Assembly: GCA_015227615.1 (NCBI GenBank)
Contig: JAALGZ010000049.1
Coordinates: forward strand, 210,037 to 274,036
Reading direction: 5' to 3'
Source: Labyrinthula sp. Ha
Lineage: Eukaryota > Sar > Bigyra > Labyrinthulida > Labyrinthulaceae
DNA: 64,000 bases
Made by a program: the position numbers and the translations under genes. Of the stretch, positions 16,520 to 45,447 are shown one piece after another; the first letter of the stretch is position 1, and the number at the start of each line of letters is the position of its first letter. The notes under the pieces were generated by a model. It searched no databases and had not been told where the DNA came from. It saw nothing but the letters and a program-made list of their open reading frames with translations.

Positions 16520-17752
16520 ATGATGAACGAAGAAAGCTATCTCTTAAATCCAGAAAAGAACCACCATGAACACAGCCACAGGTACACATTTTCTTTGCCG
16601 AGACATTGTAAGCTTCTTTTACTTTTTAGAGATGATCATATATCTAGCTCTAAGGTAGCAAAGGCAAAGAATAAGTTACTTATCGCCACTGTACTATGCA
16701 CAATATTCATGTTGATTGAGTTAATTGGTGGATACATTGCTGGAAGTTTAGCTATTATGACTGATGCAGCTCATCTTCTCTCTGATGTAGCTGGATTTTT
16801 AATATCTCTATTTGCACTTATGGTTTCTGAGTATGCACCGACAAAGGAGCTGAGTTTTGGTTTTCATCGAGCCGAAGTGTTGGGTGCTCTATTAAGCGTA
16901 GTGTTTATCTGGTTTCTTACTCTTGGACTCGTTTATCAAGCAGTTTTTCGAACAAGAGCTATTTTGAACCACACTTTGGGTGAGCCTATTAATGGAGAAG
17001 TCATGGTTGTGATTTCTGGGATTGGGTTGTTGTTCAACTTGGTATTGTTGAAAATCTTCCATCAAGGTGACCATGCCCATGGACACTCTCATGGCTTACC
17101 TGGTTCAGAGCACAGTCATACTCATGGACACGGACATGGTGAAGGTAAAAGTCTTAATATTTCAGCGGCTTATGCTCATGCTTTAGGAGATCTGCTCCAG
17201 TCTATAGGAGTCTTTCTTGCAGGGTTTATGATTTGGACACATCCAGCAGATAAGTATCCACATGTTCAACTTTTTGACCCATTTGCAACATTTTTATTCT
17301 CTGTTTTTGTATTAAACTCAACTAAAGGTGTTTTTAAAGAAAGTGTGTCGATTTTGATGCAAACAGTTCCGAGAAATTTGGATGCCGCTGAAATTTACCA
17401 AGGGATTTTTAATCTTCCTGGAGTTGTTGGTGTTCACCATCTACACATTTGGTGCTTGACACCTGAAAAAGAACATATTTCTTTATCAGTTCATGTACAA
17501 GTTGAAGATGAGAAAAATATGAATACAGTATTGAAAATAGTGCAGCATTATTTACGAGAGAAAGGATTAACACATAATACCATTCAACTGGAAGTTTTAG
17601 AGGAAAAAGTGTGTAATGTTAAAATTTGTAAGTCAGCTAGCGAAGAGACTTTAGAAGTTCCGATGTGCGATAAATATGCTGAAGATTGTTTGGCTTCTGA
17701 TAACCGCTGTCATAAATATGCGTCAGAAGATTCGATTGAATCAAAGGTATAA
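16520..17752 (+). CDS. ZnT/MTP-type zinc transporter (cation diffusion facilitator)
   Basis: Proton-coupled zinc exporter of the CDF/SLC30 family, acting at vesicle, vacuole or plasma membranes. The first in-frame ATGs are at 16520 and 16523; codons before them begin at TTG only. The protein is about 410 aa with six helices. TM2 holds MTDAAHLLSD and TM5 YAHALGDLLQ, the two HxxxD zinc sites. Between TM4 and TM5 lies the His-rich loop (HAHGHSHG, then HSHTHGHGHG) typical of zinc-selective members. A C-terminal domain (VVGVHHLHIWCLTPEKEHIS) follows, then a Cys-rich tail. The segment RYTFSLPRHCKLLLL near residues 22-36 is odd: it lies in a 48-nt in-frame GT...AG segment (about 16,582-16,629) that could be an intron, which would join HSHR to DDHISSS. 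The gene is convergent with the TMD0 gene, 50 bp away. Confidence 0.95.
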   Translation: MMNEESYLLNPEKNHHEHSHRYTFSLPRHCKLLLLFRDDHISSSKVAKAKNKLLIATVLCTIFMLIELIGGYIAGSLAIMTDAAHLLSDVAGFLISLFALMVSEYAPTKELSFGFHRAEVLGALLSVVFIWFLTLGLVYQAVFRTRAILNHTLGEPINGEVMVVISGIGLLFNLVLLKIFHQGDHAHGHSHGLPGSEHSHTHGHGHGEGKSLNISAAYAHALGDLLQSIGVFLAGFMIWTHPADKYPHVQLFDPFATFLFSVFVLNSTKGVFKESVSILMQTVPRNLDAAEIYQGIFNLPGVVGVHHLHIWCLTPEKEHISLSVHVQVEDEKNMNTVLKIVQHYLREKGLTHNTIQLEVLEEKVCNVKICKSASEETLEVPMCDKYAEDCLASDNRCHKYASEDSIESKV

Positions 17753-17802: not shown

Positions 17803-18768
17803 TTAACTTAGTTCAATATCATCTTCTTCATCTTCTTCGATTAACTTTTGTAAATGTTCCTGAAGAGTCCTTTGATTGTTCAAAGGGCCTGTAAGTGGAT
17901 CTGTATCTTCTTTAGCATAGCTAAAAAAAGTTTCATTTTCTTTTTTCATTTGTTCCTTTGATACTTTAGAGCTGGATGAAAACTTTTGAATTTTCTTTTT
18001 TAAAGTTCCAAACACACGTTTTGTTGAACTTTCTCTTCTCTTAGGTTTTCTTGGACTTATTAAAGATTCACTTTCACTAAAAAGTTGGTACTCATAGAGT
18101 TTTCCATCTTCTTCATCTTCACTCTCCGTGTAATCATTCCAATGGTGTAGATTAATCGAATCCTCTTCCTTTTTATTGTTTTCAGCTTGATATATATCTT
18201 TTTCATCATCTTCTCCAGAAATTGCAAAGAAAGCTAAAACAGTGCTAATTAGAAACACAAATAGTTCTAGTCCCCAAAAATCCGTGATTATTCTAGAATT
18301 GACTCTAGATTTAAATAATGAGAAGGATATTATGTCCAAAAAAAATTGACACAGATAAAAATTGCGAACAATACGTGACTCAGTTAATCCCTTCTTGTAC
18401 TCTAGATAGATTATGATTGTTGCAAAAAACCATATGACAAACTTAAAGAGATATGAATAGAATCTAGCTATAGAGAAAAGAAATGATAGCTTATAATGAA
18501 TAATAAAAACAAAGGTAATCACAGGGGTTAAAGTTTGAACACAGGAAAAACTGAACTTTGCCTTGTATCGTGATGTGGAATGTTTGAAAGAAAGCAAGTC
18601 AGGCAAGTTAATAATTCTTTTAAAGAGAAAATAAAAATATATAAGGAATAAACAGTAAGCCAAAGTATCAGGAAGAAGTTCTGAAAAGCAAGGGGAAATT
18701 TCTGTGTTATTTTCAATGAAGGGACCAAATCCTTCTTCGTCGCACAAATACATATTTATATAGGCCAT
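17803..18768 (-). CDS. Free-standing ABCC-type TMD0 membrane protein
   Basis: The first ATG is at 18766-18768 (an upstream GTG extends the frame by 26 codons). The product is about 321 aa and starts MAYINMYLCDEEGFGPFIEN, then EISPCFSELL. This is the luminal N-terminus of long ABCC/MRP transporters (a Cys followed by EGWGP-like and TxCF blocks, as in yeast Ycf1). Five helices follow, with the TMD0 hallmark YLEYKKGLTESRIVRNFYL between helices 3 and 4 (MRP1 has LERRKGVQSSGIMLTFW). After about residue 185 there is only a charged, Ser-rich tail (SESESLISPRKPKRRESSTK, acidic end EEDEEDDIEL) with no ABC core. It ends with TAA 50 bp from the zinc transporter, so no downstream core exists. The family match is strong; a stand-alone role is inferred. 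Confidence 0.75.
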   Translation of the reverse strand: MAYINMYLCDEEGFGPFIENNTEISPCFSELLPDTLAYCLFLIYFYFLFKRIINLPDLLSFKHSTSRYKAKFSFSCVQTLTPVITFVFIIHYKLSFLFSIARFYSYLFKFVIWFFATIIIYLEYKKGLTESRIVRNFYLCQFFLDIISFSLFKSRVNSRIITDFWGLELFVFLISTVLAFFAISGEDDEKDIYQAENNKKEEDSINLHHWNDYTESEDEEDGKLYEYQLFSESESLISPRKPKRRESSTKRVFGTLKKKIQKFSSSSKVSKEQMKKENETFFSYAKEDTDPLTGPLNNQRTLQEHLQKLIEEDEEDDIELS

Positions 18769-21667
18769 GGTAACGCCACACTGTGATTTACAGAGTTTCT
18801 TTCGCACTTGTCCGCGAACATCAAATTGCTCTCTATACAGTTCCACTTCAGGAGAATAGGTATTTGAAAAACTATTGTAAGCTAAAAAGTATTTAATATG
18901 CTCCCTTAAAAGGCTATTTAATATTTAAGCTTGTGTAATCCTATGCGTTCTGCATCGATACTGCTTCTGCAATATGAGTTACCATAATTCTTTCTAATTT
19001 TCTTGAAACAACGTTTAAATCGAACACAGATGATGTAAAAGTTGATCAAGTTACGGTTACTAGTTGTTACATCATCATTTATAGTACTGTAAAGGTTCGA
19101 AGAAAATGATTCTTGAACAAGATCAGAATAGTACTCTGAGAATGCCATTAGCTTTAGTAAAGCTATACTAGGAGTAAATTTCTTCTGTTTCGATACTGAG
19201 CGGCCTCTCCTCAACAAAAAAACTAAGGAAGCATAATGTTGCATGGTCCATGGCATAGGGTTTTAGAGAAGAACTGCTGTTAGAATAGCTTTGGACTCAG
19301 TTCAACATACTTGTAAGTCCCGTTGTGTTCTCCCGAGCATAAACTATCAACCAAAGCAACCTCTAGTAAAGGATTGCTGGCTAGTTCTAGATAGTACTCG
19401 AATTAAAAATACAGTGCAACTAAGGCCACTGGAATTTAAAGGGAACTCATTGGTAGTGAAAATGCAGGGCTTTGTACTAGTCATGTCGCCCAGGAATATT
19501 TTGTCTATTCAAGCAAGACATCACAACACCACTAAGAATTCACAAGCCTTTATATGTTTCGCTAGTAGCACAAACATTCCTTGTCGGTAGGGAACCAATA
19601 CTATGTAGTACATGAGAATGAAACCTAGGGTAAGAATAGTAATTGTAAGTAGGCATCGTTTTTCACAAAATTTATCAACAACTATTAGATTATGTTTTTA
19701 ATTATGATTATCAACGAGTGAATTGGCATTTCAATTTGTTTCAAATAATTCTGATTCCACTGTTGTATTCACTTGATTGTCAATAATCAAAATAGTATTC
19801 TCAATGTTAATGTTTATCAAGAAAAGAAATATGGGCAAAAAGTTTTTTTGATAAGTTTTCAACCAACCAGCCAAATTCAACCTCTAATCGTGGAGGACTC
19901 AAAGTCTTTATTAAGTGAATAAAAAATTTTGAACTAGAGTGAGTCGTAAGAAGAGCGATTACTGGAGTTAAAATTAAACATATGACAACAAAGAACTCTT
20001 AATGCGTGTAGTGTCTTATTAAACTGTTGATGCATGTAGAACAAAATGTTACCTTTTACCAAGTTTAAACTTAGATTACACTTTCAACTTTATTTGCTAG
20101 AGTCAAGTTACCAAACCTAGTCAAGTGGTGCCCAAAAATATCTTCGGTTTTGGGGTCTTCGTTAATCCTGGCTATTACTAGTGCTTCTGTGTTTCTTCTA
20201 GAGTTTGTATTCTAGATTGTAGGTTCTAGGAATTAAAGCCGAGGGAATAAATTATACCGCGACCGGTTACAGCTAACAAGATATCGGGACTAAATCCCAG
20301 CGTCATTACACTAGGAACAATATATTATTGTTTATTCATCCCTTTTTCCTGGAACCTGGAAGAATTTAAGGAAGAATAATTCCCTGGAATTACCAAAGTA
20401 TCCTTGAGATTAAAAGTTTAATTTGTAAAATGTTTATTTCGATCATATGTCTACTCGAGAATAAGATATATTTTGGCTAGAAATTAGTGAAATCTAAGAT
20501 AAAATCTTTATGCTGTGAAGAATAAACCCTAGAACGCAAAAAATTACTGAGCTATCAGATTTCAACCTCGAAAATAGGTATATGACTGTGATGACGAACT
20601 CGAGGTTATGCATGTAATAACAAATATTATTTTAAGCCTCTATTGAGTCTTGAATTCATATATCGAGTTCAAATAAAATTAAATTGAGGAATATAGCTTA
20701 AAACTCGTTTTCCCATGGTAATGCGCTTTGTTGTAATATTGTAGAACTTCAAAAACAGGCTGCTTGATCAAATGAAAGTTGACCTTAAACTAGAAAAAAA
20801 ACTCTAGCCCATGAAACAAAGTAACTTTCTGGAGCATTTAAGAAAGAAGTGTATCCTTTTTTAATTTTATTTGGAGTTCTCTCATCCCCAAACTAGTCAC
20901 ACAAATATTTTATCCATGGTTTTGGATTCTTGTCGGTAAGAAACTACCAGAAGCAAGTCACTTTTCTATATCGCAGTTCAAGGCGGAAAAGTAATTGCAT
21001 AGCGGGGAACCCTATTCTCCGCACTTAATTAAAAAATCAAAATAGAGGACACCTTTGAAAACTACAAAAGTATTTAAAAGCTCCAGGTACAAACAATTAT
21101 ATTCAAGTCTAGTAAATCTGAACAGTACCAAACAGCAAAAAGTCCTACTATGCAACCTAACTAAATATTCTTCTTGCAACTTAATATAATTTTAAGCAAA
21201 TTGTCACTAAAATAATACTTGAGGCTATGAGGATATATTTTTATTTTAATAGTATTATACCCATGTAGAAAAAATAGAGAAATAGAATTTTTCAAACTGT
21301 CTAAAAATATATATATATATATAAGAAATTTCCATGGAATGACATATAACTATAATATTTACCGGAATTTATATGGAATGGGTAATAACACATAAAGAAC
21401 TAAACCATATGTTCAGCCCGGTCTGCCATGCGAATACATACAATAGCTTGTATTCCCAGTTAGCTCGTAGGAGAGTTTTTGCTGACGGGGTATATATTAA
21501 ACTGTTACAACTCCACTTCTTGTTATTTTCAGTTCCCTTTTTTGAAATACTATAGCTCGAGAAATGTTACTGTCATACCGCATATAAATTGGAACGATTA
21601 AGACGACAAACTACGCTAATTAACTGGTCATATACCATCTGATTAAAATAATTTTTGCTTAAGTACT
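18769..21667. other. Gene-poor stretch, 2.9 kb
   Basis: No supported gene. Frames at 18,918-19,256 (minus) and 19,291-19,590 (plus) are open for about 100 codons but show no motif and lack corroboration. A short (AT)n run lies at about 21,307-21,322. Nothing else is recognised. Confidence 0.5.
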
Positions 21668-22513
21668 ATGAGCGAGACTGGGGAAGAGTTTTCAGAAGAG
21701 CAAGCTGAGTTCTTACAAGGTGCTTTGTTGCCGAAAGACCAAACATTAATGTCTCCTCTAGATACTTTACTAAGCCCTGTAGCAACAAACTCAGCTCATC
21801 AAAGGGCTGTTGAACCAGATGCCGAATCCACTTTGTGTTCGGAAGTAGAGCTCTTAGTTCGCTGCATTCGACTACACCTTGTAGAATGTAAACCAGATGA
21901 GCATCCTAGCCAGAAAGTACTTTTTACCACAATTCAGAATCCAACTACTATTCTCAATAACTTTAAGATTGAATACAGTACGCAGACACACCAGTTTCAC
22001 GGCAGGAAAACTGTGTTCTCGTTCAAGCTGACTGCACGCATTGAGGCAGATAAATTTCAATATATGCTTTTACTGCGTGAAAAAATTCCCTTTGTGTCTC
22101 GGATATTATTTTTTCATTACTTGAAACTTTCAGATATTGCGGTTGCTGCATCAAAGGCTAAAGTAAATTCCAAATATGTATTAGTCAAGTTTTTTGAGTC
22201 CTTGGAAACTAAGAATTCGTACGCGTTATCATTTTTGAATAGCAATTCAACCAATGAATTATTTTTTGAAAGTTCTTGCACGTCCTGGCCATGTACAAGA
22301 GAGGGTTCTTTTATTAAAGGAGAACAAAGAGGAACAATAACCTCTGGTGTACACACGCCTAATTCCGATTTCTTATTCTTTCTATCTGGGAACATTCCGT
22401 CACCCAGTCAGACTGAAGGCAATGACCTAGAAGAACTATTGCTTCATTTCAATACGAGAAACGGACTTCCAAACTTGATACTGAGATTAATACAGATGTT
22501 CAAGACCGAGTAG
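21668..22513 (+). CDS. Orphan protein, 281 aa, unknown function
   Basis: The ORF starts at ATG 21668 (MSETGEEFSEEQAEFLQGAL) and ends with TAG. I do not recognise the family. The first 55 residues are acidic and probably disordered. Residues 56-170 look like a folded alpha/beta unit (SEVELLVRCIRLHLVECKPD, then FHGRKTVFSFKLTARIEADK). The rest mixes Ser/Thr-rich loops (SSCTSWPCTREGS) with a helical end (EELLLHFNTRNGLPNLILRL). There is no signal peptide or clear membrane helix. It is convergent with the ABCC gene (127 bp apart). Balanced composition and length support a real gene. Confidence 0.65.
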   Translation: MSETGEEFSEEQAEFLQGALLPKDQTLMSPLDTLLSPVATNSAHQRAVEPDAESTLCSEVELLVRCIRLHLVECKPDEHPSQKVLFTTIQNPTTILNNFKIEYSTQTHQFHGRKTVFSFKLTARIEADKFQYMLLLREKIPFVSRILFFHYLKLSDIAVAASKAKVNSKYVLVKFFESLETKNSYALSFLNSNSTNELFFESSCTSWPCTREGSFIKGEQRGTITSGVHTPNSDFLFFLSGNIPSPSQTEGNDLEELLLHFNTRNGLPNLILRLIQMFKTE

Positions 22514-22640
22514 CATCTCTTGCTGTATACGAATTGGTTTCACGTGAAGTCCTTTGCACTATCTTTTTATTTGATTTATAGTTATTTCACGCGTTAGATG
22601 TTTTTTGGTTAGTATCGTAAGTATGTTTTTGTTTTTTTCC

Positions 22641-25600
22641 TTATATAACGGCGCTTTCACCTTTTAACTTAGATTCATAGGCGGCCTGCGCGATTTCGCG
22701 CAGTTTTTCTTCGCTTTCAGGGCCCATTTCAGCGACCATTGCGGCAAATTCGGACTTTTGCAATTCTGGCAAGTATTCCTCTGCATTTAACAACTTGTGA
22801 GGATGTTCAAACTCGGCTACTCTTCCCGCATTGAGGAAGCAAATTTTATCTGAGTCTATGATTGTTTGCAATCTATGTGCGATTATAATCATCGTGGGTT
22901 TTGAGTTATCCTGCTTAGATCTAAACTCTGTTCTAATAGTCTCTTGGATCAATAGATCGGTTGTTGCATCAACGCTTGCTGTAGCTTCATCTAGTAGCAC
23001 TATTTTACTTCTCCTTATTAGAGCTCGGGCCAAACAAACGAGTGCTCTTTCGCCAACAGAAAGGTTGGACCCATTCTCTGCAATTTCTGATTCAAGCCCG
23101 TTTGGCAAGTTATTAACTGTATCTATCAGATGAGCTCTTTCTATTGCCGAATTTAATTCCTCATCAGAGTAGAGTTTGAAAGGATCAATGTTTTCTCGAA
23201 GAGTTCCAACAAACAGCACAGGATCTTGAGGAATAAGAGTCAAACTAGAACGAAGCTTTGTCTTAGATACCTTTGATATATCAACCCCGTCAATAATGAC
23301 CGTGCCTTTCATCAGATCAACTATTCTAAAGAGAGCCATCATAATGGTCGACTTCCCAGCACCTGTCCTTCCTACCAAGCCAATGGTTTCCCCAGATTGG
23401 ATTACTAATAAATTAAGAAAAAAGAAAAACTATTACCCATGTTGGCGTCTCTCAAGGCAGGTTCTAAATTTTCTCTATAACGAAGCCAAACATTATTGAA
23501 GACAATCCGCCCATTCTCAGGCCAACTGCTTAAGGCAAGCGGTGGAGTTTTATTTTCAATATCAGTGTCTCCATTTTCCGACATCCCTTCCTCTTTTTTT
23601 GTTTCATCATCATTACCAAGTTGTTCTATTGGAAGTTGGGAATATTCTTGCACCCTCTCTACAGCATTCATATATGCCTAAAAAATTAAAATAAATGATT
23701 GAATACCTCAACTTGTGTACTCATCCTCATACCTAAGTTAAGATTGATAGTGATATTCAAAGCCAAACTTAAGCTCAATCCCGCAAGACCTGGCTGAATC
23801 TGTCCATTTTCAGCTGTTATTATCATTGCTACTGCGCAAAAGAAAATAATGAACGCTCCAAGAAATTCTAGACGCATTCCTAACCATAACTGGGATATTT
23901 CAAATGCGAATCTGGCCCTATGAGTATGATCAATTCTTTCTTTCGACAATTCTTCCCAAGTTCTGACAATGTTAAAGGCCCGAATGGTAACAACTCCAGA
24001 CAGACTCTCACCAAGTTGGTTTAAAACTGGGGATCGAGATATTGACTCGATTCTTTGCATTTCTCTACTAGTAGAAATATAATACTCCCTCAATCCAAAA
24101 TATATAACAAAAACAGGCACGATAACAACACTGAAAATAGGGGCTACCACACAAAAATAAGCTAATATCCCCAATACCCTAACAACCGTCATAATTACCC
24201 ATTGCCACACAAAGGGCAACCGGTCATCAATATAGTCTGTATCTCCACCTAGACGATTAATAACAGTTCCTAGAGGTGTCTCCCAGAAAAAAGACATAGG
24301 AAACTTGAGTACTTGCTCGACCATACTTCTGTATAAATTTTTAGCTGCCTCCACTCCAAACTTTGCGAAACCGAAACTACGAACAAACACAAGAGCCAGA
24401 TACAAGAGAGTTATCCCCCAGTAACCCCCAATAAAAGTTTGTTTTGAAACAGCGAGGCCATCGTCGCCTTCGTTACTTTCATCGTTTTGAGTGAACAAGG
24501 CTAGCCACGAGTCTATGCATAGATACACAGCTTCACAGAGGAAGAACGTACAAGTTAACATGATAAACAGAGTCAGCGAACCTCCTGTTCCAGATTTGCC
24601 ATATGCTGAAACGGTTGCCCATGAAATGCCACCACGTTGGCGTTTCTCAACACTCACTAATTTCCCCTTCTCGAGTTCTTTGGCGGTTTCCTCGGCGACT
24701 TCAAACTCAGATGAGGTATGACTAATTTGTGAAACCGGCCTTTCAGTTTCGAGGTTGTCTGTAGACCCCTGGGGCTTTGCTTCGGTAGAATGAGCTTCTT
24801 CCCCTTCTTTTTCCTGATTCTGAGAAACTAGATCCTCGAGCAACTTCCTCAAATTACCAGTATCATCTTCCATCAACTTTTCGTACGTCCCGCACTGGAC
24901 TATGCGCCCTGCATCTAAGATTACTATGCGATCAACTTTCGGTAGAAACTGAACTTGGTTTGTAACTAAGATCTTAGTCTTACCTTTAAGTGATGATTCT
25001 TCCCCGTTATTTAAAACTTGGTTAAACAGAAGATTGCCAACTTCTGGATCTACTGCAGCCAAAGGATCATCGAAGATATAAAACTCGTTTTGCGAGTACA
25101 CAGCCCTTGCTATGCTAACTCTTGCTTTTTGTCCTCCCGAGAGAGTTACTCCTCTTTCCCCTATCTCGGTCAGATCTCCAGCAGGAAATATCTGCAAATC
25201 TGATTCCAAGCAAGAAGCCTTAAGGGCTTGCTGATAGCGCTCTTTATTATAAGGTTTCTTGAATAAAATATTTTCGCGCACTGTTGCATTGAAAATAAAA
25301 GCTTCTTGAGAGCAATAACCAATACTGGAAAGGAGGGCATCCGACTTCTTTATATCTCCAGACTTCAAAGGCATCTCCTCAAGTACTGCTGACACAAAGG
25401 AGGATTTACCCTGGGCTACCCGACCAATTAAAGCAACTAGCTCCCCCTTCTTAACTTGTAAGTTTAGATTATGAAGTTGGAAGGGTTGGTGATCGATGAT
25501 CTCTGCACTCTCATCTGCGTTCTCCTTGGCAGCTGACGCCCATTGAAAATTTGCATTTTTCATCTCCAGAACAACTTCATCATCCTCAGGTCTTTTAGAA

Positions 25601-26914
25601 TTAGTCTCAAGGGATGGAAAATATAAGAAATCAGCAATTCGCTTGAAACTAACTATGGCTTGAGAAAAGGTGGCAATTGCAATAGGTATACTAATAAAAG
25701 GGGAACGGATCAGCTGAAAAAGAGAAACAACTGTGAAGGCATCTGCGGGACTAATACTGTCATGAGTAAGATAGTACACAGTAAAACTTGTAACTGAAGC
25801 AATATTTGGAACAATCAGAGCCACCGGAACAGTAAAAGCTCGAAGATACGCAATTTTTAGAAGAGATACAAGCTCTGTATCTCTTAATCTTTTCAAGATT
25901 TTCTCTACCGGAATTTCCCAAGCATATAACTTTACTATTTTTATGCCCTGTAAAACCTCTTTTGCATACTTTATTCTACTGTCCGTACGTCCAAGTTTTG
26001 TTCCTTAAAATAAAATGAGAAATAAAAAATACTTTGTGCCCTAAGTTGAAGCTGTCCAAAGTACAAACTCAAGGGTACAAACCCAGCCAAAACAGCAACC
26101 CCTGCAAATGTAGCAACGCCAATATAATAATAGATGTAGATCAACCCACCAACTAGACTGAATGGTGCTATGAGAGTTCTATTCAAAGACCTCCTAATAA
26201 AATGAAAACCAAAAATAATAATTACAACATCTCCAATACAGTCTGTACATCAGTGTTTAGAAAGGTGTTCATCTGGCCTGTGCTCGTTTTTTGTTTTGAC
26301 GCATTATCAAGAAGCATGACTTGCTTGAAAACAGCAACTGAAAACATGCTTCTACCTTTGAGTCCAACAGAAACCCAGATAAAATCTGAGTAGGTTAAGA
26401 GAATTGTGGACACAACTTGGGATAATCCAAGCCCTAAACCATACATATAGGCTACCCACAAAGGCTCATCTGTATCACCTTGAATATATGAGGTCAATAG
26501 TTGCAAGAAAAACGGTCCTAAGAATCGCAGAAGCGTGTACAGGGCATGCAAGATGAAGGAAAACAGCAACTCTCCTCTAAAACTCTTGTAAAGAATTTTC
26601 CATAGAATCCATTTGGACTCTATTCCTTCTTTCTTGTACTTTTCAAACAGCGTATTGAATTGATCTTCAAGAAATTTAGCTTCGGCATCCTCAGAAAGAT
26701 ACCATAGATCCGCTGGTTCTAGTCTTCTCTTATACCCATTTGCCACAACAGGGTTCAGCCAAGTTAGAAACAAGCGCGAAATAAAACCTCGACTTTCTAT
26801 GTCTAGTGCAGCGTCATAGTCCACATATCGTTCTCTGTATTTATTCACATCTATTGCCTTTGTTATTTGGTCTTCTTTTGCTTCAGGTTTGCCATTTTTT
26901 TGCGAATTTTTCAT
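22641..26914 (-). CDS. ABCC (MRP-type) ABC transporter core lacking TMD0, five exons
   Basis: ATP-driven exporter of conjugates or xenobiotics in a cell or vacuole membrane. Four GT-AG introns restore one frame: 26194-26225 (32 nt), 26004-26032 (29), 23678-23706 (29) and 23405-23436 (32). The exons total 4,152 nt, giving 1,383 aa. The order is: cytosolic N-terminus with the ABCC entry motif (FISRLFLTWLNPVVANGYKR), TMD1, NBD1 (about 440-650), linker, TMD2, NBD2 (from about 1,120). NBD1 has LSGGQKARVSIARA and FDDPLAAVD, with Asp in place of the catalytic Glu as in other ABCCs, but its Walker A is GRVAQGKSS, with Ala for the fourth-position Gly. NBD2 is canonical: GRTGAGKST, LIPQDPVLF, LSVGERALVCLARAL, LLDEATASVD, IIAHRL. 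There is no TMD0 at the N-terminus; a TMD0-only gene lies 4 kb away. Confidence 0.95.
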
Positions 26915-29900
26915 ATTTCCGTTCTCCGTTTTTGTTGTTCTTTTGTTATTCGGATATTTTAAACGGATAGGAGCGATTTTGATTTGCGAGAAAGAGAACC
27001 TAACTTAACGGAATTCCCCGATTTTTTGTACCTGTTGGTTTTCTCAAGATGACAAAAACAAGATAGCGTTACCAATGATTAAGGGGATGGGATAAGATAT
27101 ATATATATTGAAAACTGATGAATAAATATTTGGCCCATATTATTTTTATTCACAATCATTAATATTGGTAAAACCATTCTTACTTGATAGTTAAATATCA
27201 AATGAATATGATACCTAGGTTAGACCACATGAACCTAGGCCGAACAGCAAAGAAATAGTTTTCCTTCTTGTACCGTATGAAATTATTTTATTATGGTTAT
27301 GTGTTATGGGGATAGTCTGGAGCAAAATGCAATTGAGCCATATGGCGCATCCTTGTAATGATAGCCAATTGATAACTAAATTAACAACAGAATCATTTGA
27401 TACCAATCTAAATTCATAATCTCTTCTTGTTAGTCAGAATCAAAACAATTATCAAATAGTCTTTGGTAAATTTTACCCAGTACGATGCCTACCATGACAA
27501 AGGTGCACACAACACCCAAAATTTAGAGAGTGTGCATTTCGCTCATAGACAGGGATCAACAATAGGCCGGAAGAGTGGATATCACAGAGGCGTCAGAGTC
27601 GGTAAAGGAATTCCACCATTGGTAAACCATAGAAAAAAATTCGTATGATGTGCCACTTCAAATGAATCCTAGAATGGTCAATGTTTGCAGAACGAAACAG
27701 ATATACTTGATTCCGAAGTCAGATAATCCAGATACTGATTGGATGAATCAATCTCCTAAGAACCGAACACAGAACACAAGGAACCAACCAGAAAGCATGG
27801 AGGCAAGGTGAACATAATATAAGAGAAAAAAGAAGGCCATTACCTCTGGAGCGGAATGATTCATACAGGAGGGGAAGGAAAAAGCCACTTTCTTAAAACT
27901 TTAGTGCTTACAAGAAAAATAATTTGTCAGAGCACAAAATCTTTGGACTAAGGCATAAATGTAGGAAGATACAAATGTTTCATACAAGGTGGAGAATAAT
28001 GTCAACTTGAAAGAACATATGAATTAGTACAACGGATATAATAAATGTCGGTTCTAAAATCTTACAAATCCGCCATAACCCAGAAAATCATTGTCAGAGC
28101 AAAGCAGAATGTTCTCTTAGAAGAGATATTCTACTAGGGGTAACTAAGCAGCTCCACAAAAAAAAACACTGAACATCTATATATGCAGAAATGAAACGAA
28201 AAAACCTTGTAAGAAAAAATATTAGTAGATTTTGAAAGCACTAAATAACGATATGAAATGGTTGCAAAAACTAGGGGAGGAGAAGGCAGCTCTGCCTTTT
28301 TTCATATTAAGGGGTTTAATCACACATGGATAAGATTCAGGAATAAATGATGTTCAACATATATTTTGACTTAGGTACAATCCTTTATAGTCTAAGTGCC
28401 AAATTGGTTAGGTTTAACCCTGATTTTGACGATGTTTACATTCAACTATTTATTATTTCTATAAGAAAGTAATTGGATTTGGACTCTCAATTTATTTTAA
28501 AATATTTCTTACTAACAAGAAGCGAAATTGATTCATGATTCAAAGATATGTATTTGGGGCTGATGATGTCTAGGGTTAAAAGATTCTAGTTCCAGGAAAA
28601 GCATTGAGGGATCAACATTAAAGAGAATGTTTTGAAAGATGATGGGAAGGAGTTAGGGTTCAAGTCAGGGTTGAATGTTCTTACATCAGGGTTTAAAACC
28701 TAGATCGGTCTAGCAGTTAACGCCGTACTTTTCTATGGTGTTCATAAAAGATATATCATGACCTCTCCTTCTAACTTTCATTTTCTTTTGTGAAATGACT
28801 CTTAGCCCAAGTGAGCCCAATAGCCACTATACTTCCTTGACCTTCCGTCCAGATTTTATTTCAAGGCGATACACTATATAGGCGTTGTAGAATATATTTT
28901 CTAACAACCATTGTTTAGTTTTTATTTTTTTCAAAGAGCTAGTTACAAACATACAGAATAATGAGTACCTAACCTTTGGCACTCTTGGCGCTCAAGTAAT
29001 AATAATAAAAACATGTTTACATTGGGCTTCAATTTCTCTTTTACCTAAGCATTAAATCTTTCTTGCTTTCTAGTTTTCGTTATAGCTACAGGTTGCTTCA
29101 GGAAATTTCTAGAAAATAGTAAATTCTCCTCAATATATTTTGTCCTCTTTATATTGCATATCTTAGTCAAATGACAGTACAGGATAAGCACATTTTGATA
29201 AGGGCTTTAACTACATCTGAATCAAGCACCTCAGTTCTTGTGGGGCATATTATGTTTAAGTCATTTTTATCGCGCTATTGATTCAAAAACTTCACAGATT
29301 CTAAGACCTAACCAGTTCTGAGCTCAGCACCAATGTATCAGCTTAACTACCATCCGCAATAACGCTAGAACCTCCTTGCAAATGCATTTTTTTTTCTTTA
29401 TTGGTTCCATTATATCATACAAAATTCTTTTTAAAGTATATTCTCTGATTGTTTTTGTGATAGATACATATATAATCTAATGCCTCTAAATTAAAGTTAT
29501 AGCCGAAAGTCTCTTTTTCTGGAACAGATACATGATGCAGATACAGCTTTCGCGCTGGTCAATGTTAGAACAGAAATTACTTCTTCACACATCCTCTACA
29601 CATGTCCTTTGTTGTTTCCTAAACTTGATACCGTTGTTCCCTCATTTTTTTAAGAAATCCCTCTGAAATTTATCGAGATTATGTGTGAAGTCAACATAAA
29701 TTGCTATGTTTTCTTAGAGCTCCCTGTTAAATATCAATATTTCGTTTCTCTTTAAACATCTTTTTTAGGAAGGGATGGTTCCAAGTATATGCTTTGTGTA
29801 ATTGACATATATTTTGCTGTAACATAGTGCTCACTCACTTAATTTAGTACTGCTATCTGATAAATTAAAAGGATATCTCACAGTACACGGATGCACCAAG

Positions 29901-35062: not shown

Positions 35063-36382
35063 ATGTATTCAAGAAGATTAATTTCAACGATTAGAACGCT
35101 TGCAACTAAAAGGCAAGTATCAAATCTTGCTAGAAAAAATTTATTTGCAGCGCAAACGCCTAGAATATCTTCTTCCTTCACTTCAACTTTTCAAATCCAA
35201 CAAAAAGCCTACTTCTCTTCGCCAGTTCCTCATGGCGGAGATTTAGTATCGCTTATGCAGCCAGAAAAAGAAAGTCAACTTCTTTCTGAAGTAACCAAGA
35301 CCATTGATATCAATGAGAGGCAATCATGCGATGTACAGCTTTTAATGAATGGTGCTTTCTCCCCACTTGACGGTTTCATGGACAAAGATACATACACCTC
35401 AGTAGTTGACACCATGCGCTTGCCAGAGTCTCATGCCAAAGGCAATCTTTTATTCGGACTTCCAGTTGTTTTGGACTCATATCTTCCAGAATCTGAGTTT
35501 ACTCCTGGAGAGAAAATTCTGCTTAAATTCGAAGGAACCAACATGGCTGTTCTTACCCTAAAGGAAGCATATACACCAGACAAGGCCGTTGAATGTAAAA
35601 AATGTTACGAAACCTCTGAGCTAGAGCATCCTGGTGTTAGAATGGTTGCAATGGAGCGTGGACCTACCTACATTTCTGGTGAAATCACTGGTTTGAACTT
35701 TCCTGAAAGAATTTACCCATCCAAAACACCAGAAGAACTTAGAACTGTTTTAAGTGAAATGACTCAAGGAGATGTTGTTGCGTTTCAGTGCAGAAACCCT
35801 ATTCACAGAGCACACTATGAGCTTTTTACCAGAGCTCTAGATGCTCCTAATGTAAGTAAAGATGGAATTGCATTAGTACATCCTACTTGCGGGCCAACAC
35901 AGGAGGATGATATCCCAGGAGATGTTAGATACAAAACCTATGAAGTATTGAAGGCAGAGAAGCAAGATCCTAGAGTAGCTTACGACTACCTTCCATACTC
36001 CATGCACATGGCAGGACCAAGAGAGGCTATTCAACATATGATCATCCGAAAGAACTACGGATGCACTCACTTTATCATCGGAAGAGATATGGCAGGAAGC
36101 AAGAGTTCCATCACTGGAGAGGATTACTATGGTGCTTATGACGCTCAAGATTTGGCTAGTAAACACTCTGAGGAACTTGGCATGCAGACTGTTCCTTCGT
36201 TAAATCTTGTTTACACTGCAGAAGAAGGTTACTTAACTGCAGATGATGCAGAGAAGAAGGGACTAAAACCAGTAAAATTATCTGGAACCGAATTCAGAAG
36301 ACGATTGAGAGCTGGAGAGGACATCCCAGAGTGGTTTGCTTTTAAATCTGTAGTAGAAGTTCTTAGAGCGGCTCAAAAATAG
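35063..36382 (+). CDS. ATP sulfurylase with predicted organellar leader
   Basis: Sulfate adenylyltransferase: ATP plus sulfate gives adenylyl sulfate (APS) and pyrophosphate, the first step of sulfate activation. The ORF is 439 aa from ATG 35063. The first 55 or so residues (MYSRRLISTIRTLATKRQVS) are rich in Arg, Ser and Thr without acids, like a mitochondrial targeting peptide. The core starts at LVSLMQPEKESQLLSEV. It has the PUA-like N-domain (LMNGAFSPLDGFM), the catalytic QCRNPIHRAHYELF (QxRNPxHxxH), GRDMAGSKSS, and GTEFRRRLRAGEDIPEWF near the end. There is no APS kinase domain, unlike animal PAPSS or fungal enzymes, so it is a single-function enzyme. It is convergent with the SLC35F5-like gene, 50 bp apart. 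Confidence 0.97.
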   Translation: MYSRRLISTIRTLATKRQVSNLARKNLFAAQTPRISSSFTSTFQIQQKAYFSSPVPHGGDLVSLMQPEKESQLLSEVTKTIDINERQSCDVQLLMNGAFSPLDGFMDKDTYTSVVDTMRLPESHAKGNLLFGLPVVLDSYLPESEFTPGEKILLKFEGTNMAVLTLKEAYTPDKAVECKKCYETSELEHPGVRMVAMERGPTYISGEITGLNFPERIYPSKTPEELRTVLSEMTQGDVVAFQCRNPIHRAHYELFTRALDAPNVSKDGIALVHPTCGPTQEDDIPGDVRYKTYEVLKAEKQDPRVAYDYLPYSMHMAGPREAIQHMIIRKNYGCTHFIIGRDMAGSKSSITGEDYYGAYDAQDLASKHSEELGMQTVPSLNLVYTAEEGYLTADDAEKKGLKPVKLSGTEFRRRLRAGEDIPEWFAFKSVVEVLRAAQK

Positions 36383-36432: not shown

Positions 36433-37404
36433 CTACGCAAACAGCCAAAAGCCTATTGTTACAAAGAATCCCCCTAAACTAGAAAAAATACTCAGAGGGA
36501 TGCTGTTTAATAACCAATCAAAAAGCAAACCAAAGGGCATTGTTAAGCTTAGGCCTAAAGAAGTAAATGAAGCGCTTGTCCAGAGAACAGACTTCGCCCA
36601 CAGAAAATCAGCAACAACATTATTGAAAAAACCATTAACGAACACCAAGGAGATCCCAGGTTGCTTCCAGAATTGATCATGGTGAGAAATCAAAAAAGGG
36701 TCGACAAACCATAAGAGCAGAAAAATCACTAGACTGAGTAATCCAACTATACCAAACATAGCTGAAACGGCGTTTTCGTTGATAAATAGCTTTATGTAAA
36801 TTGAGTACAATGCGTAAAAAACAGCTGAAGACAGGGCAAGTAGATCGCCATCAAGTTGGTTCTCTTTTGAGCACGTATTACTTGTTTGTTTAGAACTTGA
36901 GGAATCCAGAGAAACCAACAGAGTTCCAATAAAGGACAAAGACAATCCTAAGCCTTTGTACAACGAAAGTGAACCTTCTGGAAATTTAAGTATCCGTTCA
37001 AATGCGAAGATCAAGAAAGGGGAAGTACCACTTAGCAATGTGCTTGCTCCCACGGATGTGGAGCAAACACTGTAGTTATAAAGTAGATTTGCAAAGAACC
37101 AAAGGGGAAAGAACCCGAGAGAAACTTTCAATATTTGTAATGGGTGATCAGGTTTCTTCCATGATCTCAGGAGAAATGAAATTGAATAGACACTAAACAA
37201 CGATGTATAGAGAAGACTCAAACCAAAAGGGGTAAACTTTGCACTATCCTCAGTAGACTGAATAACAAAAGAGGAGACTGTCCAAATAACTACAATACAG
37301 GCAATTGCACAAACTCCAAGATATTTTTCTTTGTTATGTATATCCTGTACTTCTAATTCCCCGACTAAAGGATCTTTTTGATCACTCTCTGATCTCTCCT
37401 CCAT
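36433..37404 (-). CDS. SLC35F5-like drug/metabolite-superfamily membrane transporter
   Basis: The 323-aa protein has about ten membrane helices, with the arrangement and signature segments of the SLC35F5 group of the drug/metabolite transporter superfamily. It has a cytosolic acidic N-terminus (MEERSESDQKDPLVGELEV), LGFFPLWFFANLLYNYSVCS, then TSVGASTLLSGTSPFLIF (the conserved T-x-x-S-x-S-x-F block), KGLGLSLSFIGTLLVSLDSS, GDLLALSSAVFYALYSIYIK and a C-terminal NGFFNNVVADFLWAKSVLWT followed by SLGLSLTMPFGLLFDWLL. SLC35F5 relatives are multi-pass proteins of internal membranes; the substrate is unknown. The start is ATG 37402-37404 and the stop TAG. It shares a 145-bp divergent promoter with the CDF-like gene. 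Confidence 0.85.
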   Translation of the reverse strand: MEERSESDQKDPLVGELEVQDIHNKEKYLGVCAIACIVVIWTVSSFVIQSTEDSAKFTPFGLSLLYTSLFSVYSISFLLRSWKKPDHPLQILKVSLGFFPLWFFANLLYNYSVCSTSVGASTLLSGTSPFLIFAFERILKFPEGSLSLYKGLGLSLSFIGTLLVSLDSSSSKQTSNTCSKENQLDGDLLALSSAVFYALYSIYIKLFINENAVSAMFGIVGLLSLVIFLLLWFVDPFLISHHDQFWKQPGISLVFVNGFFNNVVADFLWAKSVLWTSASFTSLGLSLTMPFGLLFDWLLNSIPLSIFSSLGGFFVTIGFWLFA

Positions 37405-37549
37405 GAATTCAATGCAAAATGGGGGACAAGCTTAAAATATTTATTTCCTGGTTTCAAGTTTTCGCGTCATTTGATTGGTAGAATCTTCGCGTATCCAATC
37501 AGGTAGGAATTAGCGTGCAGACAGGATTTCAAAAAGAACACGCGAAAAA
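37405..37549. promoter_or_regulatory. Bidirectional promoter with paired inverted CCAAT boxes
   Basis: The 145-bp spacer between two divergent start codons contains ATTGG at 37474-37478 and CCAAT at 37495-37499, in opposite orientation about 16 bp apart, plus two TTCGCGT words (37461-37467 and 37486-37492). The repeated arrangement suggests shared control. The sites are seen; function is inferred. Confidence 0.4.
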
Positions 37550-38521
37550 ATGTTGCCCACAGATGAACCTAAAAGAAAAAGAGGAAACACTTTCCTGAGC
37601 GATGGATCCACAGATTCTACTGATATACATGAAATTAAGCTCTTTGAAAATGTTCCAGAAGAGGAGTTCGTCCATAATCTGAAGGAGTACAACTCAGACA
37701 GAAGTGTTATCTCTAAAGTTGTTTCGTTTCTCAACTGCTTCAACCTCCCACATGATGTCTTTGTACTTTGGACTATGTTATTCTTCAATGGAACGTTTGC
37801 AATGGCTGAACTTTTTGGAGCAGTTAGAGCCAATAGTCTCTCTTTGTACGGAGATGTTAGCACTATGCTACTAGATTCTTTTACATATATGCTCAACATA
37901 TATGCAGAAAGCCAGAAATACAAATCAGATGTCGATGTGAACTCATTGAGACATAAAACTCGTATAATGAAGATTGAGATCAGTGTAACTGGTTTCAGTA
38001 TAGCTATTTTGTTTTCTGTAACAACCTTCCTCTTAAACGATGCAATACGAAGGCTGAGAGCACCAGAACAGCATGACAAAGGCGACGATGAAGTATCATC
38101 AACTATATTGCTTCGTTTTAGTTCAGTTAATCTACTCATTGACATAATAGCATGTTTTTTTTATTGTACTCGATATTGGCAACCTACAATGGATGCTTCT
38201 CCTGAGACTGGTGGTTTTATCGGTGAAGAAGCAGATCAACTTGGAGTGGAATCATTAGAAGAAAACGAGGTACAAGAGAAGGAAAATGAAAAAAATTTAA
38301 ATATGGCCTCTGCGTTTTTACACCTTGGTGCAGATACGATGCGTACTGTCACTGTAATGGTCATTGCAATTGTTATGAAAACAGAAGATGATGAAGTATC
38401 GAGTACAGATGCAGATGCTATTGGTTCTCTAATAGTTAGCCTTGTTATTATTCTGATGGGACTAGTACTTTGCTATGAGCTTTTTGAGCTTGTTTCAAAG
38501 TATAGAAAGCTGGCATCTTAA
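37550..38521 (+). CDS. Divergent CDF-like six-helix membrane protein without C-terminal domain
   Basis: The 323-aa ORF runs from ATG 37550 to TAA. It shows the cation diffusion facilitator fold in outline. TM1/TM2 read FNGTFAMAELFGAVRANSLS, then LYGDVSTMLLDSF, and TM5 reads NMASAFLHLGADTMRTVTVM. TM5 keeps the HxxxD metal pair (H258, D262). In TM2 the usual first His is Thr (T105), leaving T105-x3-D109 plus D102. The His-rich loop is absent; an acidic segment (GEEADQLGVESLEENEVQEK) sits in its place. The protein stops right after TM6, so the cytosolic dimerising domain is missing. It could transport another cation, or act as a non-transporting partner of a CDF subunit. It is clearly distinct from the zinc transporter at 16.5 kb. 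Confidence 0.7.
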   Translation: MLPTDEPKRKRGNTFLSDGSTDSTDIHEIKLFENVPEEEFVHNLKEYNSDRSVISKVVSFLNCFNLPHDVFVLWTMLFFNGTFAMAELFGAVRANSLSLYGDVSTMLLDSFTYMLNIYAESQKYKSDVDVNSLRHKTRIMKIEISVTGFSIAILFSVTTFLLNDAIRRLRAPEQHDKGDDEVSSTILLRFSSVNLLIDIIACFFYCTRYWQPTMDASPETGGFIGEEADQLGVESLEENEVQEKENEKNLNMASAFLHLGADTMRTVTVMVIAIVMKTEDDEVSSTDADAIGSLIVSLVIILMGLVLCYELFELVSKYRKLAS

Positions 38522-39380: not shown

Positions 39381-40415
39381 TTAGTTTACTATATTCTCAG
39401 ATATGACTTTTGATTTTGGTGCAGTTGTGTTCCGAGTGGGTTGCAAATATGGAGTACCTTTTCTTGAAGCCTGTTTCACATCTGTTTCACCAGTTTTATG
39501 TGGAAGAACAAACTTCCCATAAACCAAACATATCGGAGCAAATGAAATTGGGTTAAATATTGTGCATAGATTAAACCAAATGTAAATCTCTTCCATCTGA
39601 GCAACAGAAGGAATTATTGCTGCAATGTCAAGTACAATGAACGTGACCACCCCGTTAAGAGAAGAAAACCTATACAATTTGAACTTTAAATTCATCCCCT
39701 CCATTTTTTTCTTCTCCTCTTCTTTTGCAGTTTTTGAACTTATCTAGTCTAATCTTTCGATTAACTGTTTTACAAGCATTTCTACCAAGTAACCTAAACA
39801 GAAGATTACAGGCATCAAACTCCAGTACAAGTACGACATGTGACCAAAAATTCCAATAATGTCATTTTTGAGTAGGAAAAACCATAAAAAAAAGGACACA
39901 AGAATCTGAAGGGGAACTACTCTAAGCGTACCGAAAACAGTTTCTTCTATTTTTCTTGACAAGCTAGTAATCTGCATGATCTGAATTATTACCGGGACAA
40001 ATTGAAGATGAGAATGAACAGTAAAAGTGATAGCAGAAAAATTTCCAAAAGCAGAAAGTTTTCCTCTTGATGTTTCCAAGCCTTCTTGTTGCAACATCCC
40101 AGTGAGTATATAAACTTCACCACTAAGCATAGCAAGGAAAGCGAATATCAGAACTAGGATATTTGATTTGAGAAATTGCATGTCTCTAGACTGTAGAGTA
40201 AAGAAACTCTTATGTGAAAGATTTTGAATTTTCTTCCTATTCTTCAAAGCGAAGTTAATTAAAATCAATGAAATTGTCACAAAATAAATACCATAAAATG
40301 CTCCTGCGATTAATTGGAAGTTTCTTAGCAATCCATTGTAGACTTCAAAAAGGGATGAATTACAGCCAGTAGTATTTTCTAAATGTACAAGAGGGAGATC
40401 ACAATCATTTTCCAT
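39381..40415 (-). CDS. Seven-helix membrane protein (receptor-like), two exons
   Basis: Two frames join through a 30-nt GT-AG intron at 39744-39773. The spliced product is 334 aa, with 214 codons before and 120 after a phase-0 junction. Without splicing the first frame stops after five helices. Helices are near residues 33-57, 80-105, 118-145, 165-187 and 190-212 (exon 1), then two more in exon 2 (VVTFIVLDIAAIIPSVA and WFNLCTIFNPISFAPICLVY). The join creates a basic loop (SSKTAKEEEKKKMEG) between helices 5 and 6, the place of the long third intracellular loop in G-protein-coupled receptors. The last helix has NPISFAP where rhodopsin-like receptors have NPxxY. The N-terminus carries N-x-S/T sites (NTTG, NSSL). 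No family is firmly recognised. It lies in tandem with TCTP. Confidence 0.65.
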
Positions 40416-40572
40416 CTCTTTAAATTAGTTTTCTTTCGAACCCGTGCAAATAAACCAACCGTTAAATAGACAAAAAAGTTCAAGTTCTATACGTTGTTGC
40501 AATAATGGAAATCAGCACAATAAAGCTAAAAACTGGAAAGACATAGCGGTCCTTATCGCTTAGTTCTATTAT

Positions 40573-43551: not shown

Positions 43552-45447
43552 TTACTTTCCAGCACCAGTGGGTACATAAACTACCTCCAGTTCATCTTCT
43601 TCGCTGGAATAGTCATCTTCATCAGCTGGTTTTCTTATCTTGAAAATTTCTTCAGGTTCTATATCGGAGCCTGTTCTACAGCCTTCAATGTCATCGTACA
43701 CACCCATCTCTATTTCAACCTCTTCCTCACTAATAACTTCTTCATACTGTTCAACTTTTTCAGAAATTGAATCAATAGTGTGAGTAGCAGGCTGCACTCT
43801 ACTAAGCTCTACTACCTTTTGCCTCAAGTTTTCAATTTCTGCCTCTGCCTTGGCGACTCTCATTACCTCCTTTAGGTATTCCTCTCTAAACTCTCTCAAC
43901 TCCTGAACAACCCTGTCAACTTCTTCAGCACTTGCACCTTGAACAACCTGCTTTACACTTTTTCCATCTAAACTACCTAGTATCTCTAATCTACTAAAAT
44001 TTCCCTTCGAATCACCTGAAATTGTAGAGGGATTCTTAGATGTATCTAAACTTGCATTATATGCAAATTTCTGGAAGCGTCTTTGCTCCTCCTCTGTTAA
44101 TAGTTCTAGAGGGCCATTAGTGGATCCATGAAACCCGCGTTTTACATAGCTCTTTAGTTCAGCGGCATCTAAGCGTGAATCAAAATTACTCACAAACTCT
44201 CCCGCTTCTGCCTTTTCCACTACATCAGCCTCTATATCTGCTTTCACAAATGTTCCATCTAAATGATCGGACTTATTGGACAATGGAAGTGTTAGACCGC
44301 GTAACAGCACCTTCTTATGCAAGATTAAGCCATCAACATATCGATCCCAGTTAATTTTTTCTTTTCCATTAAAGAAGGGTTGTTGGAGAATTCTAACTTC
44401 ACCTTCTCTCCCCAACTCGCACCCGATGCGTGTCGATGGGTTGAATTTCAGCCAGCCGGAAACAAGGTCCAATGCATCTGGATCCTTAATCAAACTCTTC
44501 TCAAATGCACCATTTTTCATCTTTCTAAGCAACTCAACATTTCTTTCCTTTCGAGTTCTTTTCTCCTTTGTTAATCTATTACTCCTTGTAGCTTTAGAAC
44601 CTTTCGTAGTCCTTGTTCCTGCCTTGCTCTCACTCTTTGATTTAGACAACCTTGACACCCTTGTTACCTCATTACTTGTATAAGAGTCCACTTTGAAGGG
44701 CAAAGAGCCAGCAAGAAGAAAAAAAAGCACACAACCAGCACTAAACCAATCACAAGCAAAAATAAACCCTTTTCCACTTCTCAAGTAAATCTCAGGTGCA
44801 CGAAATCCTTCGGAGCCCCATCCATCTCTGTGTCCTATGGTTCCTGCCTCTACGGGACTCAACTGAAGAGAAACATTCAAATCAGTGAGTCGTAGATGCC
44901 CATTATGGTCCAAGAGAAGATTTGCAGGCTTTACGTCTCTATGAACAATGTAATGCTCGTGGAGAAATGTTAGTGCTAAAACCAGCTGAGCCATCCAATG
45001 ACGAACAACTGAGAGAGGTATGAAAGATGAGGGTTTAGAACTTTGCTTAATTTTGTCAAGATAGTGTGAAAGTGATCCGCAGAGCATTAAATTTGATACC
45101 AGGAAAAGATTATACTTGTCTTGAAAGGCAAAATGGAGGTTAACAATGAAATGATTCTTTGGAAGTTTTTTCAAGATGTTGAACTCATTGAGCACATTTG
45201 ATACTTCTTTATGCTTCAGGATTTTATATTTATTCATTTGCTTTATTGCATATAAATGTGAGTTCATTTTGCCTGCAAATACAGTTGAAAATGTTCCCTT
45301 TCCAAGGTTATGGACAAAAGCTGGGGTCTTAGTGCTGGAAGAAGTTTGCTTCGACACTGTCTCAAAGCTAGATAAGGAAACATGTGGATATCTAGATGAT
45401 TTCTTTCCTCGTTGACCTTTTTGACCTTGGGGTTGAGTATTTCCCAT
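43552..45447 (-). CDS. AGC-group Ser/Thr protein kinase (GRK/STK32-like), predicted N-myristoylated
   Basis: The 631-aa ORF runs from ATG 45447 to TAA. The N-terminus MGNTQPQGQKG fits an N-myristoylation signal (Gly2, as in PKA MGN). The kinase domain spans about 45-370: glycine loop GKGTFSTVFAG, AIKQ Lys, HRDVKPANLLLD catalytic loop, metal-binding motif DLN instead of DFG (STK32 kinases have DFN, GRKs DLG), RAPEIY, and DWFSAGCVLFFLLAGSLPF. A basic Ser/Thr-rich insert (VSRLSKSKSESKAGTRTTKG) splits the C-lobe at about 260-300. An AGC-like end RIGCELGREGEVRILQQPFF follows. The C-terminal third has a coiled coil (EELREFREEYLKEV type, about 515-555) and acidic tail segments. All catalytic residues are present, so it is probably active. 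The substrate is unknown. Confidence 0.85.
   Translation of the reverse strand: MGNTQPQGQKGQRGKKSSRYPHVSLSSFETVSKQTSSSTKTPAFVHNLGKGTFSTVFAGKMNSHLYAIKQMNKYKILKHKEVSNVLNEFNILKKLPKNHFIVNLHFAFQDKYNLFLVSNLMLCGSLSHYLDKIKQSSKPSSFIPLSVVRHWMAQLVLALTFLHEHYIVHRDVKPANLLLDHNGHLRLTDLNVSLQLSPVEAGTIGHRDGWGSEGFRAPEIYLRSGKGFIFACDWFSAGCVLFFLLAGSLPFKVDSYTSNEVTRVSRLSKSKSESKAGTRTTKGSKATRSNRLTKEKRTRKERNVELLRKMKNGAFEKSLIKDPDALDLVSGWLKFNPSTRIGCELGREGEVRILQQPFFNGKEKINWDRYVDGLILHKKVLLRGLTLPLSNKSDHLDGTFVKADIEADVVEKAEAGEFVSNFDSRLDAAELKSYVKRGFHGSTNGPLELLTEEEQRRFQKFAYNASLDTSKNPSTISGDSKGNFSRLEILGSLDGKSVKQVVQGASAEEVDRVVQELREFREEYLKEVMRVAKAEAEIENLRQKVVELSRVQPATHTIDSISEKVEQYEEVISEEEVEIEMGVYDDIEGCRTGSDIEPEEIFKIRKPADEDDYSSEEDELEVVYVPTGAGK

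Follow-up and report, generated by a model that had tools for sequence, protein, structure and literature searches.

The TMD0 domain, which long ATP-binding cassette (ABC) transporters of the MRP type carry fused at the N-terminus of their core, has been studied so far by cutting it from MRP1, Ycf1, SUR1, and TAP. The TMD0 of SUR1 expressed alone is reported to associate with Kir6.2 and to alter surface expression and gating (PMC3870925), and the TMD0s of TAP are described as autonomous domains that need no core to insert and to recruit tapasin (PMC3437018). For MRP1 and MRP2 activity TMD0 is reported to be dispensable (PMC4410673; similarly, for trafficking, PMC6077975); core-MRP1 is still found basolaterally, and core-MRP2 and core-Ycf1 are mislocalized (PMC4410673; PMC6077975). 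Short ABCC transporters function without this domain; the human ABCC4, ABCC5, ABCC11, and ABCC12 proteins are listed without TMD0 (PMC3724490). Here we describe a locus of the Labyrinthula sp. Ha genome (GCA_015227615.1, contig JAALGZ010000049.1, positions 210,037–274,036) in which a TMD0-like protein and an ABCC core lacking TMD0 look like the products of 2 separate genes. Positions given below are those of the 64,000-nt stretch analyzed, hereafter the window, to which the searches for a second core were confined.

The TMD0-like open reading frame (ORF; positions 17803–18768, minus strand) is a single exon of 321 amino acids, counted from the first ATG, with its own start and its own stop codon. 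From stop to stop, its frame extends to position 18924 and comprises 373 codons, against a longest stop-free run of 240 codons over 100 windows shuffled in 200-base blocks. TMD0_ABC (PF24357) was the sole Pfam family found for this ORF at E ≤ 1, matching residues 9–151 with profile positions 4–144 of 159 (27.3 bits, E = 4.6e-6). When the TMD0-like domain was searched alone (residues 1–190, positions 18199–18768), the score was 29.2 bits (E = 1.2e-6), which is above the curated Pfam cut-off of 27 bits and still marginal. The same model gave 167.8 bits with Ycf1 and 39.8 bits with the TMD0 of MRP1. TMD0_ABC matched none of 9 controls (a reversed sequence and 8 block-shuffled ones) asked at E ≤ 10, a test in which the HMMER filters discard most control matches above E of about 0.1, and at E ≤ 1 it did not match 3 other window proteins that appear to be multi-pass (36433–37404, 37514–38521, and 39744–40415). 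An earlier note on this DNA, made from the letters alone, had described the 321-residue protein as a TMD0 that then stops. The match at residues 9–151 bears out the TMD0 part of that description, but the protein is not a TMD0 alone because a charged tail occupies residues 191–321.

The N-terminal Cys/EGFGP/CF block and the E-x-K-K-G-x-x-x-S loop, which the earlier note had pointed out, could be aligned with Ycf1 and MRP1. In the three-way alignment, Cys9 of the ORF corresponds to Cys13 of Ycf1 and Cys7 of MRP1, and Cys27-Phe28 is aligned with the CF of both proteins; the EGFGP block is common to the ORF and Ycf1, and the E-x-K-K-G part of the loop resembles the E-R-R-K-G of MRP1. Smith-Waterman scores of 61 were obtained for the ORF with Ycf1 (reached by 2 of 500 shuffles) and also with MRP1 (3 of 500), and the score of Ycf1 with MRP1, 42, was below that of the ORF with either. 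BLASTP of the ORF yielded 22.3 bits with Ycf1 and 26.2 bits with MRP1, in short stretches only, and a search of NCBIfam returned nothing for it. The TMD0-like domain, which contains both Cys9 and Cys27, displays 5 hydropathy clusters, of which the fourth is weak, and, with helix limits drawn by eye, has no lysine or arginine in residues 1–27, ahead of the first helix. This charge pattern fits an N-out, C-in topology, and the predicted outside N-terminus contains a sequon at N20 (N-N-T). An intron-like stretch of 55 nt, which is not a multiple of 3, lies inside the domain (18522–18468; the pattern scan considered GTA and GTG donors only). The C-terminal tail (residues 191–321, positions 17803–18198, minus strand) is highly charged and gave no Pfam match at E ≤ 0.01. 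Its sequences YQLF and ESESLI agree with consensus sorting motifs; because both also occurred in 18.3% of 20,000 shuffled tails and are thus expected by chance, they carry no weight here.

The core gene (22641–26914, minus strand) encodes 1,383 amino acids in the order TMD1-NBD1-TMD2-NBD2 (NBD, nucleotide-binding domain) and lacks TMD0. Removing 4 GT-AG introns from 26914–22641 leaves a single reading frame with one terminal stop; these introns are short and uniform (26225–26194, 32 nt; 26032–26004, 29 nt; 23706–23678, 29 nt; 23436–23405, 32 nt). Pfam placed ABC_membrane in exon 1 and in 2 stretches of exon 3, and ABC_tran in exons 3 and 5. The best match in the PDB was 'ABC transporter C family member 2' (771.6 bits, core residues 42–1367), which we take to be Arabidopsis ABCC2. 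Because this alignment begins at core residue 42 and at residue 231 of the target, it is the TMD0-bearing part that the core is missing. With a start at 26914, an in-frame stop ahead of it, and no TMD0 found in the roughly 2 kb upstream, the core is not of the long ABCC type. In long ABCCs, TMD0 and L0 lead into a segment called the lasso, and from about the lasso onwards the core is, as judged from the alignment, complete. The PDB scores favor some long types and suggest that the core descends from a long-type ABCC; this is suggested and not shown, because Ycf1, a long protein, scores below the short MRP4 and MRP5. The Walker B motifs of the translation are YIFDDP in NBD1 and VLLDEA in NBD2, which fits the asymmetric nucleotide sites of ABCC proteins, with Asp in NBD1 and Glu in NBD2. 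As a separate observation, the Walker A motif of NBD1 reads GRVAQGKSS, compared with GSTGEGKTS in the best PDB match, with an Ala at a position where the consensus has Gly; that of NBD2 reads GRTGAGKST.

The 2 genes lie on the same strand, core 5' and TMD0-like ORF 3', with about 3.9 kb from the core stop to the TMD0 start codon. A TMD0-less ABCC core about 4 kb away on the same strand had been proposed in the earlier note, and the splicing model and the PDB alignment agree with it. Between the genes, on the plus strand, sits an ORF of 281 amino acids (21668–22513) that is likely a gene; Pfam gave it no significant match, the best being DUF1410 (E = 0.093). Because this opposite-strand ORF intervenes, one transcript shared by core and TMD0-like ORF is unlikely. 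On the other side, a plus-strand gene for a CDF-type zinc transporter (16520–17752, Cation_efflux and ZT_dimer) converges on the TMD0-like gene, and the 2 stop codons are 50 bp apart, which leaves little room to continue the TMD0-like gene; any continuation past its stop would lie antisense to the zinc-transporter gene. No donor/acceptor pair resembling those of the core was seen by eye for a short intron that would remove the TMD0 stop. A missed TMD0 exon upstream of the core was likewise considered and is not supported, as 26850–29000 contains only short open stretches, the longest of 72 codons on the minus strand. In the roughly 2 kb ahead of the core (26915–28900), the 3 minus-strand frames gave no Pfam match, and hence no TMD0; a weak tblastn match upstream of the core at 27814–28113 was at a level that 14 of 200 shuffled queries also reached. 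Because the core introns are only 29 to 32 nt long, a hidden intron on the kilobase scale would be out of character. Finally, tblastn of the core's 3 largest exon pieces (the 2 short exons were left out) at E ≤ 10 found no second ABC core in the window, returning the core itself, cross-matches between its own NBD1 and NBD2, and one match at E = 7.8.

These results bear on the possibility that, in the organism, the TMD0 exon connects to an ABC core at another site and that the apparent separation is an artefact of the gene model or the assembly. The analysis rests on one genomic sequence, which leaves room for such an error, but the in-frame TMD0 stop with the convergent gene 50 bp further on, and a core that has its own start, an in-frame stop upstream of its ATG, and introns of about 30 nt, make this explanation very improbable. 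The earlier note had gone further and held that gene order excludes a simple exon-skipping artefact. The order itself was confirmed; exon skipping, like a missed exon or a shared transcript, is not supported, which is a weaker statement than exclusion. The note's central statement, that the TMD0-like domain and the TMD0-less core have separate coding sequences, held up, with neither a missed exon nor a second core found in the searches.

Our favored reading, to which we give about an even chance of being right, is that ORF 17803–18768 encodes a genuine, separately expressed membrane protein that acts in trans. The product would be an ABCC-type TMD0 with its N-terminus outside and 5 helices, continuing into a charged tail in the cytosol. 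It would insert into the membrane independently and target or dock one or several membrane partners, of which a TMD0-less ABCC such as the neighboring core is a plausible one. What the analysis shows is the remote sequence relationship to TMD0, the arrangement as separate genes, and a core that is complete from about the lasso. Expression, autonomous folding, a trafficking or scaffold role, and pairing with the neighboring core are all what we infer, and the neighboring core is a candidate partner by proximity only.

Several results weigh against this reading. The full-ORF Pfam score exceeds the cut-off by only 0.3 bits. Against a two-sequence profile of Ycf1 and MRP1, the ORF scored 3.5 bits, a value that 3 of 500 shuffles equaled or exceeded, and it was outscored by several of the window's other ORF fragments. 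When Ycf1 or MRP1 was used singly in phmmer, the ORF score was reached by 8 of 500 and 12 of 500 shuffles, respectively. No ABC protein was matched by phmmer of the ORF against the PDB, and a scan of viral contigs yielded no relative. AlphaFold2 models made without relatives were poor (mean predicted local distance difference test scores of 52.3 and, for the 190-residue model, 57.9), and Foldseek of the low-confidence 190-residue model against the PDB gave 86 matches at E ≤ 10, none at E ≤ 0.001 and no ABC protein among the best 50 of the 86. The marginal Pfam score, the failure of the two-sequence profile, phmmer, and PDB searches, and a structure search that, with a poor model, lends no support are also what one would expect if the ORF encoded an unrelated multi-pass membrane protein matching TMD0_ABC by chance or composition. 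However, the match spans most of the TMD0_ABC model, the Cys pair and the loop motif are aligned, the charges are of the N-out type, and neither the 9 controls nor the 3 multi-pass-looking window proteins match the family, so that we consider an unrelated protein improbable. The sequence comparisons point to remote homology between the ORF and TMD0, which the single-sequence tests support barely or not at all.

The coding statistics belong to the same unfavorable results. Per codon, the codon likelihood was 0.013 over residues 1–206 of the ORF and 0.062 over its full length, both inside the non-coding range (mean −0.024, standard deviation 0.055, maximum 0.133, n = 70 non-coding ORFs). Synonymous codon usage was uninformative for the ORF (exon 3 of the core was part of the pooled training counts). 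The tail scored 0.150 per codon, in the range of clear genes. The 10 clear gene pieces themselves contributed to the counts used for scoring them, which somewhat flatters their values. Altogether, codon statistics are no proof that the ORF is expressed. The weak codon likelihood of the membrane part would agree with a relic, that is, with the ORF being the 5' remainder of a duplicated long ABCC gene that has lost its core, not or no longer functional, next to a core that works without TMD0. Adjacency and gene order are compatible with a tandem duplication, a TMD0-less member of a long-MRP clade is known (PMC3724490), and partial ABCC proteins are recorded in a mosquito (PMC7339416). Yet 321 codons have stayed open and the tail is coding-like; the tail has no Pfam match, tblastn of the ORF against the core of this window yielded nothing at E ≤ 10, and remnants of a second core were not found in the window. 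A plain truncated relic is disfavored because truncation would leave L0 or TMD1 sequence. We regard the relic as rather unlikely.

The last of the unfavorable points concerns the partner: in MRP1 and SUR1, the 5 TMD0 helices are described as not touching the core (PMC6199259). This also speaks against a two-part transporter in which the TMD0 protein and the neighboring core are stable subunits of one pump. Such a pump, the stronger reading of the earlier note, would be a special case of our favored reading and overlaps with it. Both genes are close together on one strand, the core starts just ahead of the lasso, and that TMD0 can be separated from the core is established for long ABC transporters (PMC4410673; PMC3437018). 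On the other hand, the opposite-strand ORF between the genes argues against one transcript and proximity by itself is weak, and we hold a stable two-part pump to be unlikely. Similarly doubtful is a naturally split long ABCC in which the product of the TMD0 gene docks in trans on one or more TMD0-less cores as an exchangeable targeting and regulatory subunit.

For the TMD0-only protein of our favored reading, we infer an origin by tandem duplication of a long ABCC gene, after which the upstream copy would have lost its TMD0 and the downstream copy its core. The order of core and then TMD0 would follow from such a duplication with reciprocal loss, and the window searches found no remnants of the lost TMD0 or the lost core.

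The window, which has spliced genes, reads as eukaryotic; searches for tRNAs and for Rfam families at gathering score found none. Besides the zinc-transporter gene at 16520–17752, it encodes a second transporter of the cation-efflux family (37550–38521, plus strand), within the same 64 kb as the ABCC transporter and an ATP sulfurylase (35063–36382). A protein kinase (43552–45447; Pkinase, E = 3.9e-47) has DLN at the DFG position, a feature reminiscent of STK32/YANK-type kinases. The protein at 39381–40424 is hydrophobic and probably multi-pass, and is encoded in 2 open stretches, possibly joined by an intron, neither with a Pfam match.

Among the literature matches listed, no TMD0-only gene is described in the titles or abstract openings; most subscription journals lie outside that search, and this is weak evidence of absence from print. 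If true, a natural TMD0-only gene would mean that TMD0 has a use of its own, and would offer a ready-made system for studying its binding and the destinations of its partners. The TMD0 of SUR1 (ABCC8) on Kir6.2 resembles the predicted protein in being a domain able to act alone (PMC3870925), and differs in being an engineered fragment; no ion-channel family turned up in the window ORFs scanned with Pfam. An ability to insert and recruit a partner without a core is reported for the TMD0s of TAP1 and TAP2 (PMC3437018), which are, unlike the proteins encoded here, subunits of an ABCB transporter, separated by engineering. The spider mite protein tetur28g01950 is, like the core, without a TMD0 that its authors could identify, and belongs to a long-MRP clade; the available text mentions no separate TMD0 gene (PMC3724490). 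'ABC transporter C family member 2' shares the aligned core and differs by about 190 extra N-terminal residues, where its TMD0 is located. With the TMD0 of yeast Ycf1 and human MRP1 (ABCC1), the ORF has in common the domain match, the Cys pair, the loop motif, 5 hydrophobic clusters (the fourth weak in the ORF), and charges that fit N-out; unlike theirs, which is fused via L0 to an ABC core, the domain encoded here gives way to a charged tail, after which the frame stops.

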